From NCBI RefSeq assembly GCF_947486615.1, contig NZ_CANKUD010000002.1, forward strand, positions 310,001 to 374,000: a stretch of 64,000 bases of DNA, read 5' to 3'. Each line of letters opens with the position of its first letter. Within the stretch, counting starts at the first letter, position 1. Positions 38,398-42,463 of the stretch are shown piece by piece. This DNA comes from an uncultured Modestobacter sp. (GTDB lineage: Bacteria; Actinomycetota; Actinomycetes; Mycobacteriales; Geodermatophilaceae). Under the pieces are notes generated by a model, which worked only from the letters and a program-made list of their open reading frames with translations, had not been told where the DNA came from and ran no database searches. The position numbers and the translations under genes are program-made.

Positions 38398-40689
38398 TCA
38401 GAGCTTGACGAGCGGGGCGTACCGGAGCACGAGCCGCTTGGTGCCCCCGGACCCGAAGTCGACGGTCGCCTGGGCCTTGTCGCCGGCGCCGTTGATCTCC
38501 ACCACGGTGCCCAGCCCGAACGCATCGTGGCTGACCCGGTCGCCGATCTCGACGTTGATCACCGGGCGGTTGCCGGCGCCACCGCGGAGCCCACCGGTGG
38601 AGAGCCCGGTGGCGGCGACCCGCGACTGCGCCGAGCCCATCGCCTTGGTCGGCGCCGGCTCCAGCCGCTCCCAGTGGACGGCGTCGGTGGGCAGCTCGTC
38701 GAGGAACCGGGACGGCGGGTTGTAGGCCGGCTGCCCCCAGCTGGTGCGCACCGTCGCCCGCGAGAGGAACAGCCGCTGCCGGGCCCGGGTGATGCCCACG
38801 TAGGCCAGCCGGCGTTCCTCCTCCAGCTCCCGCGGGTCGCCCAGGGCGCGCATGTGCGGGAAGACGCCGTCCTCCAGGCCGGTGAGGAAGACGACCGGGA
38901 ACTCCAGCCCCTTGGCGGTGTGCAGGGTCATCAGCGTCACCACCCCGGCCTCGTCGCCGGTGACCGGGATCTGGTCGGCGTCGGCGACCAGCGACACCTG
39001 CTCCAGGAAGTCGGTGACCGTGCCGTCGGGGGTGGCGGCCTCGAACTCCGCGGCCACCGAGATGAGCTCGTTGAGGTTGTCGACCCGGCCCTCGTCCTGC
39101 GGATCGGTGCTCGCCTCGAGCTCGGCGAGGTAACCGGTGCGGTCGAGGATGCTCTCCAGCAGCGCGGCCGGGCCGGAGCCGGTCTCGACCAGCTGCTCGA
39201 ACTCCTCCAGCAGCGCCACGAACTCTTGGATCGCCTTGAGCGACCGGGTCGCGAGCTCACCGACCTCGGCGGCGCGGCGCAGCGCGCTGGCGAACGGGAT
39301 GCGCTCCCGGTCGGCGAACCGCTCGACCGCCGACTCGGCGCGCTCACCGATGCCGCGCTTGGGGGTGTTCAGCACCCGGCGCAGGCTGACCACGTCGGCC
39401 GGGTTGGCGACGACCTTGAGGTAGGCGACGGCGTCCCGGACCTCGCGGCGCTCGTAGAAGCGCACCCCACCGACGACCTTGTAGGGCATGCCGACCCGGA
39501 TGAACACCTCCTCGAAGACGCGGGAGGCGTTGTTGGTGCGGTAGAAGACCGCGATGTCCTTGGGTTGCGCGGTGCCCTCGTCGGTGAGCGCGTCGATCTG
39601 CTCGGCCACCCAGGCGGCCTCGTCGTGCTCGTTGTCGGCGACGTAGCCCTCGATCAGCTCGCCGTCGCCGGCGTCGGACCACAGGTTCTTCGGCCGGCGC
39701 GCGGTGTTGCGGGCGATGACTTGGTTGGCCGCCTTGAGGATGCGCTGGGTGGAGCGGTAGTTCTGCTCCAGGACGATCGTCCTGGCCTCGGGGTAGTCGC
39801 GTTCGAACTCGTCGATGTTGCGGATCGTCGCGCCGCGGAAGGCGTAGATCGACTGGTCGGCGTCGCCGACCACGCACAGCTCCGCCGGCGGCACCGGGCC
39901 GCCGTGGGTGCCCACCAGCTCGCGGACCAGCACGTACTGGGCGTGGTTGGTGTCCTGGTACTCGTCGACCAGCACGTGCCGGAAGCGGCGGCGGTAGTGC
40001 TCGGCCACGTCGGGGAAGGCCTGCAGCAGGTGGACCGTGGTCATGATCAGGTCGTCGAAGTCCATCGCGTGCGCCTCGCGCAGCCGCCGCTGGTACAGCG
40101 CGTACGCCTCGGCCAGCACCTTCTCCGGCGCGGTCTGCGGGGCGTAGGACTCCTCGTCGATCAGCTCGTTCTTCAGGTTCGAGACCTGGTTGGCGAGGCT
40201 GCGCCCGGGATACCGCTTGGCGTCCAGGTCGAGATCGCGGGCGACCATCGTCATCAGCCGGACCGAGTCGCCCTGGTCGTAGATGGTGAACGAGCTCTTC
40301 ATGCCGAGCTTCGCGGCCTCGGCGCGCAGGATGCGCACGCACATCGAGTGGAACGTCGACACCCACATCGCCCGGGCGCGCGGGCCGACCAGGGCCGCGA
40401 CGCGCTCCTTCATCTCACCGGCGGCCTTGTTCGTGAAGGTGATCGCCATGATCGCGCCCGGCTGCACGCCGCGGGCGCCGAGCAGGTAGGCGATGCGGTG
40501 GGTGAGCACCCGCGTCTTGCCGGAGCCCGCGCCCGCGACGATGAGCAGCGGGCTGCCCTCGTGCACCGTGGCCTCGCGCTGCGGGCCGTTGAGGCCGGCG
40601 AGCATCCGGTCGAGCTCGCGACCGACCTGGCCGGGGGCCTGCCGGGCGAGCGCGGCGGTGCCGGGGAGGGTGTGCTGGGGGCTGCTCAC
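38398..40689 (-). CDS. pcrA: ATP-dependent DNA helicase PcrA/UvrD (UvrD1)
   Basis: Superfamily 1A 3'-5' helicase for nucleotide-excision repair and replication-fork clearance. 763 residues. Q-motif LNGPQREA, Walker A GAGSGKT (about residues 47-53), DEYQDTN (about 245), VGDADQSIYAFRGA, QNYRST, TLHTAKGLEF and VGITRAR follow in order, and the C-terminal Tudor-like segment VSHDAFGLGTV ends the protein. GTG 40689 overlaps the stop of a 20-codon ORF (GTGA), and the family start MSSPQHT-like agrees. The 66-codon extension upstream in the same frame is Arg/His/Pro-rich and not family-like. Confidence 0.93.
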   Translation of the reverse strand: MSSPQHTLPGTAALARQAPGQVGRELDRMLAGLNGPQREATVHEGSPLLIVAGAGSGKTRVLTHRIAYLLGARGVQPGAIMAITFTNKAAGEMKERVAALVGPRARAMWVSTFHSMCVRILRAEAAKLGMKSSFTIYDQGDSVRLMTMVARDLDLDAKRYPGRSLANQVSNLKNELIDEESYAPQTAPEKVLAEAYALYQRRLREAHAMDFDDLIMTTVHLLQAFPDVAEHYRRRFRHVLVDEYQDTNHAQYVLVRELVGTHGGPVPPAELCVVGDADQSIYAFRGATIRNIDEFERDYPEARTIVLEQNYRSTQRILKAANQVIARNTARRPKNLWSDAGDGELIEGYVADNEHDEAAWVAEQIDALTDEGTAQPKDIAVFYRTNNASRVFEEVFIRVGMPYKVVGGVRFYERREVRDAVAYLKVVANPADVVSLRRVLNTPKRGIGERAESAVERFADRERIPFASALRRAAEVGELATRSLKAIQEFVALLEEFEQLVETGSGPAALLESILDRTGYLAELEASTDPQDEGRVDNLNELISVAAEFEAATPDGTVTDFLEQVSLVADADQIPVTGDEAGVVTLMTLHTAKGLEFPVVFLTGLEDGVFPHMRALGDPRELEEERRLAYVGITRARQRLFLSRATVRTSWGQPAYNPPSRFLDELPTDAVHWERLEPAPTKAMGSAQSRVAATGLSTGGLRGGAGNRPVINVEIGDRVSHDAFGLGTVVEINGAGDKAQATVDFGSGGTKRLVLRYAPLVKL

Positions 40690-40748
40690 TCCGGGGCCAC
40701 CGCGGAAGCGTGGCGCGCCGGCGGAGCGGTGTGCTGGGGTGAGTTCAT
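40686..40748 (-). CDS. Candidate leaderless upstream ORF of pcrA, 20 codons
   Basis: ATG 40748, 9 nt after TAGAGT, opens MNSPQHTAPPARHASAVAPE and stops in TGA overlapping the pcrA GTG. Its start resembles the pcrA start SSPQHTLPGTAALA, as if the pcrA N-terminus were duplicated in a shifted frame. It could couple translation into pcrA. Confidence 0.4.
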   Translation of the reverse strand: MNSPQHTAPPARHASAVAPE

Positions 40749-40757
40749 GGCCCCGCC

Positions 40758-40763
40758 ACTCTA
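40758..40763 (-). promoter_or_regulatory. -10 box upstream of pcrA
   Basis: TAGAGT lies 9 nt before the ATG of the 20-codon ORF that overlaps pcrA. Confidence 0.45.
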
Positions 40764-40854
40764 AGCCGGGACACCGACACCGCCGGGGGCCCGCGTGTCG
40801 CCTGGGGACGGCGTGACCTGGCCGCGCGGTCCGGGGTGTGGCAGACTCCCCGGC

Positions 40855-40917
40855 GTGCTGATGCATCGCGAGTTTTACTACGGCCACCGGGTTCCGGTGT
40901 CCGTACTCGCTGGCTGA
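40855..40917 (+). CDS. Aromatic amino acid leader peptide of the chorismate mutase gene
   Basis: A short ORF, GTG at 40855 or ATG at 40861, encodes MHREFYYGHRVPVSVLAG and stops at 40915-40917. Phe-Tyr-Tyr in the first third of an 18-20-residue peptide ahead of an aromatic-pathway gene is the hallmark of ribosome-mediated attenuation. CAGACT lies 7 nt before the GTG, the same arrangement as folD, so translation may begin at the 5' end of the mRNA. Immediately after the Tyr codons the RNA can fold as CACCGG-GTT-CCGGTG, the position of a pause hairpin. The stop codon lies within the 14-nt palindrome TGGCTGATCAGCCA. Confidence 0.7.
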   Translation: MLMHREFYYGHRVPVSVLAG

Positions 40918-40933
40918 TCAGCCACCGCACACG

Positions 40934-40964
40934 ACGCCCCGGGCCCAAGGCCCCGGGGCGTTTT
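40934..40964 (+). terminator. Attenuator terminator before chorismate mutase
   Basis: Intrinsic terminator: a 12-bp stem (5' arm 40934-40945 ACGCCCCGGGCC, 3' arm 40949-40961 with one bulged C), loop CAA, then TTTT. It sits 16 nt after the leader peptide stop and 47 nt before the chorismate mutase ATG, where no upstream gene on this strand needs ending. Confidence 0.75.
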
Positions 40965-41010
40965 CTGTCTCTCCGGGTCCGACGGCCTCCCGCCCGCCCC
41001 GGAGGAACCG

Positions 41011-41301
41011 ATGAGCAGCACCCTCTCCCCCAGCGTCCCCACCGACAGCCCTGCCGAGCCGGCCGAGCGCATCGACGCGCTGCGCGCCGAGATCGACGCC
41101 TGCGACGCCCAGATCATCGAGCTGGTCCAGCGCCGGCTGGCCGTCTCCCGGGAGATCGGTGAGCTGCGCACCGCCTCGGGCGGCATGCGGCTGTCGCTGT
41201 CCCGCGAGCAGCGGGTGCTCGCCCGCTTCCGCACCGCGCTCGGCCCGGACGGCGCCGCGCTCGGGATGATGCTGCTGCGCCAGGGCCGCGGCCGCCTCTG
41301 A
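41011..41301 (+). CDS. Chorismate mutase (AroQ-delta, Rv0948c-like)
   Basis: Converts chorismate to prephenate, the branch point to Phe and Tyr. 96 residues; RIDALRAEIDACDAQIIELVQ starts the AroQ helix H1, with RRLAVSREIG and SGGMRLSLSREQRV giving the Arg and Glu active-site residues, and LLRQGRGRL at the end as in M. tuberculosis Rv0948c. That subclass is weakly active alone and is activated by DAHP synthase through its C-terminus (family knowledge). GGAGGA precedes the ATG. Synteny with pcrA agrees. Expression is probably governed by the leader peptide/terminator upstream. Confidence 0.92.
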   Translation: MSSTLSPSVPTDSPAEPAERIDALRAEIDACDAQIIELVQRRLAVSREIGELRTASGGMRLSLSREQRVLARFRTALGPDGAALGMMLLRQGRGRL

Positions 41302-41374
41302 GCCGCTCCACCCGTCCGGGGGACGACGCCGGGTCGTGCGTCAAGCCCGGCGCAGAGCGGTCGATGTCCTCATC

Positions 41375-42463
41375 GTGACCGCACGCTCCGGCCCCACCGA
41401 GGGAGCCCTCTCCCGGTGGTTGCGCGGCGACCTGGCCGACCGGGCCCGCTACGCGGACATGCACACGCGCTTCCGCAACGCCCAGCCCATCGGCGCCCTG
41501 GTCGGTGGGACGACGCTGCTGGTCTCCTGGTGGCACGGCCCGGAGCTGGTGGGGCTCGTCGTCCTCGGTGGGCTGACCATGATCGGCGGCGTCCGGCTGC
41601 ACTCGCGGCTGCCGCACGCCGAGGCCATCGGCGCCGTCGCCTTCCTGCTCCTGGAGCTCAACGCCGCTGCGGCGGTGCTGCTCAGCGGTGGTGCGACCAG
41701 TCCGCTGCTGCCCCTGATGGCCGTTCCCGTCTTCAGCCAGGCCGTGGCCTTCCGGCTGCCCCTGTTCGTGACCGGCATGCTGACCTCGATGGTGCTGGCC
41801 GTCCTGGCCGTGGTCCTCGCGCCGCCGGCCGTGCCGGCGCCGGACTGGCTGCACGTGGTGGCGTACCTGGCGCTGCTGGGTTGCCTCGCCCTGGCGGGTC
41901 ACTGGTTGCTCAGCGCCGACCTGCACTCCCGTGACGAGGCGGTCGTCGACCCGATGACCGGGCTCTACAACAGGGTCACGCTCAACGCTCGGTTCGACGA
42001 CCTGCAGCGCCGGGCCGCCGACGCGGGAACCTGCGTCGGGCTGGTCATGCTCGACGTCGACCACTTCAAGCAGATCAACGACGAACACGGGCACGACCGT
42101 GGCGACCTCGTCCTCCAGGAGCTGGCCGACCGGCTGCGCCGGGAGCTGCGCGTCTCCGACATCGCCTACCGGATCGGTGGCGAGGAGTTCGTCGTCCTCC
42201 TCCCGGGCCGGGATGCCTCGGGCACCCTGCAGGTGGCCGAGCGGCTCCGCCGGGCGGTGCAGGGCGAGCCGCTGTCGGACCTGCCGGTGACCCTGTCGGC
42301 CGGCGTGGTCAGCGGCGTCGGTGGCATCGACAGCCTGGCCGACCTGCTCCGCGCCGCCGACGGCGCGCTCTACCGGGCGAAACGCGGCGGACGCAACCAG
42401 GTCGTCGCGGCCGAGCCGGTCCCCGGATCCCCCCGGCAGCCCGTCCCCGGAGCGCACACCTAG
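41375..42463 (+). CDS. Diguanylate cyclase (membrane GGDEF protein)
   Basis: Makes c-di-GMP from GTP. 362 residues: a short cytoplasmic lead, five or six transmembrane helices (about residues 35-185) acting as an unknown sensor, then a GGDEF domain (about 195-345). DPMTGLYNR, LDVDHFKQINDEHGH and the active site GGEEF are intact, and an RxxD inhibitory site (RVSD) lies five residues before GGEEF, so product inhibition is expected. Start uncertain: GTG 41375 or GTG 41336. The stop codon TAG is part of the next gene's -10 box. Confidence 0.88.
   Translation: MTARSGPTEGALSRWLRGDLADRARYADMHTRFRNAQPIGALVGGTTLLVSWWHGPELVGLVVLGGLTMIGGVRLHSRLPHAEAIGAVAFLLLELNAAAAVLLSGGATSPLLPLMAVPVFSQAVAFRLPLFVTGMLTSMVLAVLAVVLAPPAVPAPDWLHVVAYLALLGCLALAGHWLLSADLHSRDEAVVDPMTGLYNRVTLNARFDDLQRRAADAGTCVGLVMLDVDHFKQINDEHGHDRGDLVLQELADRLRRELRVSDIAYRIGGEEFVVLLPGRDASGTLQVAERLRRAVQGEPLSDLPVTLSAGVVSGVGGIDSLADLLRAADGALYRAKRGGRNQVVAAEPVPGSPRQPVPGAHT

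Follow-up and report, generated by a model that had tools for sequence, protein, structure and literature searches.

A predicted leaderless Phe/Tyr attenuator upstream of the chorismate mutase gene aroQ in Actinomycetes

Our analysis suggests that the chorismate mutase gene aroQ of an uncultured Modestobacter sp. is very probably controlled by a leaderless, ribosome-mediated transcription attenuator of the trp/phe type that would sense charged tRNA-Phe and tRNA-Tyr. The window, i.e. the whole 64,000-nucleotide stretch of DNA analysed, had been described in an initial annotation as carrying an apparent Phe/Tyr attenuator on aroQ, and the conserved leader ORF, its aromatic codons and the covarying hairpin (H1) and terminator speak in favour of this reading (Table 1). 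The ORF, the codons, H1, the terminator and the leaderless spacing are supported by sequence comparison across relatives. Their conservation across several actinobacterial families suggests an old switch that would sense Phe and Tyr.

Table 1. Coordinates of the features at the aroQ locus, numbered from the first letter of the window
Feature	Positions	Strand	Remarks
-10-like hexamer CAGACT	40842..40847	+	7 nt upstream of the GTG; a leaderless transcript is predicted from it
Leader ORF	40855..40917	+	GTG start; peptide VLMHREFYYGHRVPVSVLAG; stop TGA 40915-40917
Proposed sensor codons TTT TAC TAC (Phe-Tyr-Tyr)	40873..40881	+	outer Phe and last Tyr conserved
Hairpin H1 (regions 1 and 2)	40880..40904	+	ACGG/CCGU around a CACCGG/CCGGUG core
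Candidate antiterminator	40896..40938	+	GGUGUC(C)GU 40896-40904 with ACGACGCC 40931-40938, the terminator foot
Palindrome TGGCTGATCAGCCA	40911..40924	+	spans the stop codon; in the window its stem forms the inner hairpin of the fold proposed for the antiterminator
Intrinsic terminator, GC stem and TTTT	40933..40965	+	stem about 40933-40962; from terminator scan and covariation
aroQ Shine-Dalgarno-like GGAGGA	41001..41006	+	read from sequence
aroQ	41011..41301	+	chorismate mutase of 96 aa, a relative of Rv0948c (intracellular chorismate mutase); ATG start 41011

The leader and its conservation in Geodermatophilaceae

The aroQ product scores 44.3 bits against Pfam CM_2 and 101.9 bits against the NCBIfam chorismate mutase NF005894, and its closest solved structure is 2qbv (Rv0948c, E 1.5e-20). 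A long ORF on the opposite strand, which we take to resemble a UvrD/PcrA helicase, diverges from aroQ; it is listed at 38398-40887 and its true start is probably lower. The leader and the terminator sit between this helicase-like ORF and aroQ. ARAGORN also called a tRNA-Arg (gcg) at 42115-42209, inside a long ORF (41336-42463) resembling a GGDEF protein, and this call is probably a false positive.

The leader ORF is kept upstream of aroQ at all 105 Geodermatophilaceae loci examined (species repeated), so the lack of a conserved ORF and aromatic codons in relatives, which had been named at the outset as refuting, was not found. AroQ is present in 109 of the 112 family genomes searched. The 105 loci come from 50 of these 109 genomes (30 + 20), 54 of the 57 relative records and L001, in overlapping sets; L001 and L002 are both the window locus, and the distant AroQ matches L085-L087 were left out of the count. 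One set of 85 loci has the leader at all 85. Over all 105, a stricter script detected 102 of the leaders and three (L089-L091) were recognized by eye, the -10 rule having missed their CATACT. This gives 76 distinct family leaders by script, or 79 with these three.

A short ORF ending at 40917, with a start at either 40855 or 40861, had been claimed and is indeed present. The upstream GTG is the better of the two starts, since every listed family leader peptide begins at GTG; the ATG at 40861 does not hold up as the start, and among the listed family leaders only the window has a Met at the third peptide position. The family leaders share F-[YSFPAL]-Y-G-[HYRL]-R, in which the outer Phe and the last Tyr are constant and the middle residue varies (Y/S/F/P/A/L), the middle aromatic codon often being lost. 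Codons of this kind are what a trp/phe-type attenuator uses as its sensor, with Phe/Tyr ahead of aroQ and Phe/Trp/Tyr where the related leaders precede DAHP synthase. Of the 76 distinct leaders, 71 have TTT as their first Phe codon; in 40 reference ORFs of the window Phe is encoded by TTC 365 times and by TTT 0 times, these ORFs (at least 150 aa) having been picked by codon-position GC (high GC3), which itself favours TTC. The Tyr codon in the 76 leaders is always the common TAC, not a rare one. The last Tyr of the motif is preceded by 8, 9 or 13 codons in these leaders, which indicates that the insertions preserve the reading frame.

The start of the leader ORF lies at promoter distance. We found a [TC]ANNNT hexamer separated from the leader start by 6-7 nt in 76/76 family leaders, in 59/78 leaders of the wider class Actinomycetes (for some of the 19 misses, e.g. 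L110 and L116, the script apparently took a later start) and in 13/15 leaders before DAHP synthase, against a background of 547 among 19699 ATG/GTG codons of the same loci. A sigma-70 scan, whose rule also requires a -35 hexamer, returned no site at the locus. A short leader ORF upstream of the gene, as in trp/phe-type attenuators, is thus represented by a conserved in-frame ORF with a promoter-spaced start, and this ORF is predicted to be translated.

Paired structures in the leader and the proposed switch

H1 and the terminator are conserved as paired structures. We selected 47 of the 79 distinct family leaders for diversity (alignment A2), and 97.2% of the 936 cells of H1 and the terminator form standard pairs, compared with 30-52% for slid versions of the pairing. 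Two-sided changes occur in 21 cells against a shuffled mean of 3.6, and 0/500 shuffles are as high; the number of pair types is less telling, as it was equalled in 48/500 shuffles.

The hairpin CACCGG 40885-40890 / CCGGTG 40894-40899 named in the initial annotation exists but is longer than claimed, as ACGG 40880-40883 can pair with CCGU 40901-40904. Over the 47 leaders 96.6% of the H1 cells are paired, the C-G pair adjoining the core being broken in 10 of them. Its two-sided changes are C-G to U-A in five leaders and A-U to G-C in one (L003), where the peptide changes from H to R and from V to A while the H1 pairing stays. These two-sided changes, with two amino-acid changes in L003, indicate that the pairing and not the peptide is preserved there. 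When H1 arms were swapped among 17 groups, cognate pairing was preferred (p 0.0000 with 10000 permutations; 0/5000 in an earlier run). The test used 168 leaders, with the groups set by peptide type and three groups consisting of one locus each, and it is mildly circular because most class leaders, though not the family leaders, were selected by a stem-after-Tyr rule.

These data bear on the alternative of nascent-peptide arrest, in which, as in TnaC, the leader peptide, perhaps together with free Phe or Tyr, would stall the ribosome. The F-x-Y-G core is recurrent in most class leaders, as such a model would like. However, conserved nascent-chain residues upstream of the stall are the mark of an arrest peptide, and here the residues ahead of the core differ in sequence and in number, with 8 to 24 codons preceding the Tyr codon, those after the core lie in H1 and change while the pairing persists, and the aromatic set differs by gene. 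We give this alternative a small chance compared with tRNA-sensing attenuation.

The GC-stem terminator with TTTT that had been noted before the chorismate mutase gene is also real by our measures. It is the one terminator-like site in 40600-41300, where shuffled sequences have 0.1 on average, and 97.9% of its cells are paired over the 47 leaders, with three pairs changed on both sides. An arm-swap test of the terminator is circular, since the arms were themselves chosen by folding. A terminator stands between the leader and the gene in the window and the family, and this arrangement is less clear in some other groups; the Mycobacterium-like and f18 groups have short, weak U tracts. The 14-nt palindrome that had been reported across the stop codon is present too, and some leaders, e.g. 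those of Blastococcus type, have not conserved it. An Rfam scan of 40400-41400 for T-box and other families gave six weak matches only, all below half their gathering scores. Behind the terminator we observed the stretch GGGTCCGACGGCC (40975-40990 region), whose strict form occurs in 16 of the 76 family leaders, some of them trimmed by the script.

An alternative hypothesis could be translational attenuation or coupling, with translation of the leader governing access to the aroQ ribosome-binding site and not termination. A pairing of CCTCC 40986-40990 with GGAGG 41001-41005 of the Shine-Dalgarno sequence is possible in the window, and mycobacterial cysteine genes are said to be under translation attenuation in the excerpted text of PMC13236596. 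Against this reading, a strong covarying intrinsic terminator lies between the leader and aroQ, and the CCTCC partner is absent in many of the family members shown; we regard it as improbable, and transcription attenuation remains our preferred explanation.

It had been claimed that no convincing antiterminator pairing could be found. One can in fact be proposed from the fold: for the window leader with the 5' arm of H1 removed, to mimic a ribosome stalled on the Tyr codons, and with half of the terminator transcribed, the minimum-energy structure contains the antiterminator at -19.7 kcal/mol. The part of the claim that stands is the doubt, as a swap test of this pairing was marginal. It gave p 0.083 in a run where the terminator finder failed for L111, then p 0.0499 with re-detected terminators, where the finder settled on different hairpins for several groups (e.g. 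Klenkia, MAG_g7g8, L128, f16 and DAHPS_A); the value for a control pairing was 0.015. A complete terminator is the most stable fold, at -36.0 kcal/mol, also when the 5' arm of H1 is taken away, and the consensus agrees. Because the finished terminator is more stable, antitermination would have to be kinetic.

The comparative data on this pairing point in both directions. In A2 the antiterminator helix is paired in 91.4% of 278 cells, and two measures of its covariation were reached by 82 and 45 of 500 shuffles. At least 3 of the 6 antiterminator pairs were predicted for 39/47 leaders when stalled versus 12/47 without a ribosome, the count tolerating a partner slip of up to three columns. For the stalled segment, RNAalifold gave a consensus that lacks the proposed antiterminator and prefers a CCGG:CCGG register. 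When region 2 was shuffled, the number of expected antiterminator pairs fell from 4.42 to 3.49 for the family, from 9.32 to 7.00 for the class and from 10.46 to 6.96 for the leaders before DAHP synthase, in a calculation where some terminators were misplaced; the last of these show strong pairing (6.77) also when no ribosome is stalled. From these models, it is plausible that the pairing of 40896-40904 with 40931-40938 works as the switch.

We infer leader translation, ribosome stalling, the antiterminator and the direction of the response, and the mechanism could work as follows. Transcription would start at or beside the leader GTG, as the -10 spacing predicts, and a ribosome would begin leaderless translation there. 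With charged Phe- and Tyr-tRNA available, the ribosome would clear the Phe-Tyr codons and reach the stop codon, where H1 or the ribosome itself would block the pairing of region 2; the terminator would then form and transcription would end before aroQ. A shortage of charged tRNA-Phe or tRNA-Tyr would stall the ribosome on TTT TAC TAC, where it would cover the 5' arm of H1. This would leave the 3' arm free to pair with the emerging terminator foot, and transcription would continue into aroQ.

Related leaders across Actinomycetes and before DAHP synthase

The leader extends well beyond Geodermatophilaceae, and conservation of the ORF, aromatic codons, hairpin and terminator before aroQ holds there as had been predicted. 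AroQ is present in 145 of 296 class genomes. We took 98 upstream stretches, mostly of the better AroQ matches, and used 95 after dropping L146-L148 (weak AroQ matches). A rule that required F..Y within an ORF of 9-40 codons and, behind it, a stem of 6 bp or more with one mismatch allowed found a leader in 74/95 aroQ upstream regions compared with 16/950 dinucleotide-shuffled ones. Eight more leaders were added by eye and lie outside the shuffle control, four failing the rule on distance or stem (L126, L131, L133 and L138) and four having longer ORFs (L186, L188, L195 and L202), so that an F..Y leader ORF occurs at 82/95 loci in total.

Nine families carry the leader before aroQ, Geodermatophilaceae included (f1, f2, f3, f4, f14, f16, f18, f19 and f33 by our handles). 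Typical peptides are VLSKQRFFYGYRSAVPVV in f2/g13, which we guess to be Mycobacterium-like, MLTHPTFLFTYGNRPTGCHGRAA in f19 (Streptomyces-like, also a guess), VFDQRFFYYGTGSPAAVGRA in f3 and ..FYGGRARSPLCR in f18.

No leader was found at the other 13 of the 95 class aroQ loci. Nine of them belong to f2 (eight of genera g14, g16, g17 and g19, and one of g13), one is L139, whose contig ends close to aroQ, and three are the second aroQ copies L179, L183 and L206. The last three are from Streptomyces-like genomes, as if the leader were a trait of the main copy only. The leader-less loci L113 and L119 (g14) share another similar stretch before aroQ, GGTCTGTTTCACGGTGAA.., which is possibly a different control element. 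At L117, L121 and L123 (g17), also leader-less, the aroQ start itself seems leaderless, right behind a -10-like box.

A covariance model built from the family leaders alone (R1) gave full-length matches on the aroQ strand, with E up to 1e-3, at 53/95 class loci. Among the leader-less loci, L139 on its cut contig gave a partial match (E 0.09), and the remaining 12 had no match at E up to 1. At E up to 0.1 there are R1 matches in 190/296 class genomes, many of them weak. Strong matches away from aroQ occur in f17, a family that we guess to be Micromonosporaceae-like.

We examined 20 non-aroQ places matched by R1, picked mainly for score and for f17, and 15 of them, all in f17, precede DAHP synthase. 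There, leader peptides such as MQRNFWRFYGYRPDTPVACRALR or MRTAFWFWYGDGPESVRHLTLR are followed by a terminator and then by a 343-352 aa protein starting with MVIVM; a scan of 5 of the 15 downstream proteins identified each of the five as a DAHP synthase. The other five places (L220, L221, L222, L223 and L225) have no comparable leader and resemble plain terminators. They could be taken, together with the ease with which GC-rich DNA gives hairpins and ORFs, to favour a constitutive terminator next to a chance small ORF, with no amino-acid control at all. The conservation of frame, aromatic codons, promoter spacing and paired bases across families argues against chance, and we find this explanation very hard to credit beside an amino-acid-sensing attenuator.

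The sensor codons differ between the two genes. Trp occurs in 15/15 leaders before DAHP synthase versus 0/76 family and 9/78 class aroQ leaders. DAHP synthase feeds all three aromatic amino acids and chorismate mutase only Phe and Tyr. The Trp codons fit amino-acid sensing, and their presence before DAHP synthase, with Phe/Tyr before aroQ, indicates that the sensor codons follow the controlled gene. In the genome of the window itself we found no F/Y leader before the loci of the class II DAHP synthase, the DAHP_synth_1 match and prephenate dehydratase, searching roughly the 1.7 kb that make up the upstream end of every locus for ORFs of 8-40 codons with at least three aromatic residues; only two such ORFs turned up, about 1 kb upstream in L227, and they are unlike the leader.

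We consider it likely that an old leaderless attenuator family guards the aromatic pathway in Actinomycetes, before aroQ in nine sampled families (Phe/Tyr) and before DAHP synthase in a tenth (Trp added). The RNA design would have moved between genes, with the sensor codons rewritten for the new end products.

Known attenuators and biological meaning

The pheA gene of E. coli encodes a bifunctional chorismate mutase-prephenate dehydratase, and the E. coli pheA, pheST and trp attenuators are not known to be leaderless. With their end-product codons (in pheL for pheA), hairpins and a terminator before the gene, they are otherwise like the aroQ leader, going by excerpts of PMC11802643. A leaderless start had been called unusual for attenuation, a view that does not agree with Streptomyces lividans, where most of eight leader peptides are called leaderless in the excerpted PMC8079986. 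These leaders (trpL, leuL, ilvL and others) likewise stand before amino-acid genes; they differ in that the eight peptides concern Leu, Trp, Ala, Ile, Met and Thr, and none Phe or Tyr, within that excerpt.

A similar system by description is AroR, which precedes the aroF (DAHP synthase) operon of Corynebacterium glutamicum (PMC4046766, PMC11802643, citing Neshat 2014; both in excerpt). It too is a leader peptide of an actinobacterium, has Phe and Tyr codons side by side and attenuates an aromatic-pathway gene. AroR differs in its codons (Phe-Tyr-Phe) and in standing before DAHP synthase and not chorismate mutase; the window leader precedes aroQ, and the related element of f17 does precede DAHP synthase. 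According to the same excerpts AroR responds to Phe limitation, and Tyr supply is reported to be without effect (PMC11802643, PMC4046766). In Acholeplasma, uORFC-13-1 before aroF is similar in being a proposed Phe uORF with a terminator before DAHP synthase, and differs in belonging to another phylum and having a ribosome-binding site, again compared by description (PMC8632094, in excerpt).

In the literature searched we found no description of a Phe/Tyr attenuator before aroQ, which supplementary tables may carry, and six leader motifs used as a text query returned no paper. In the excerpted part of PMC1262725, a survey from 2005, no conserved RNA structures are reported ahead of Phe and Tyr operons in Actinobacteria. 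The word chorismate has 0 occurrences in the main text of that paper and of those on the S. lividans leaders (PMC8079986), mycobacterial cysteine uORFs (PMC4633059), the M. tuberculosis ilvB1 attenuator (PMC13236596), M. tuberculosis small ORFs (PMC11133741) and Acholeplasma (PMC8632094), the topics being given here from excerpts; the main text of PMC4046766 never uses the term chorismate mutase. The excerpts of PMC11802643 name no leader for chorismate mutase, and in them Phe, and the complex formed with DAHP synthase, control the C. glutamicum chorismate mutase of the same kind.

A leader common to several families would bring gene-expression control to this branch point as well, and the element would extend to Streptomyces-like and Mycobacterium-like groups. 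What stands out in an aroQ attenuator is its breadth, its leaderless start and sensor codons that change with the controlled gene. The leader would offer a ready sensor for amino-acid engineering, and the Phe/Tyr and Phe/Trp/Tyr leaders on one scaffold would provide a natural test of how leader codons evolve with the gene that they control.
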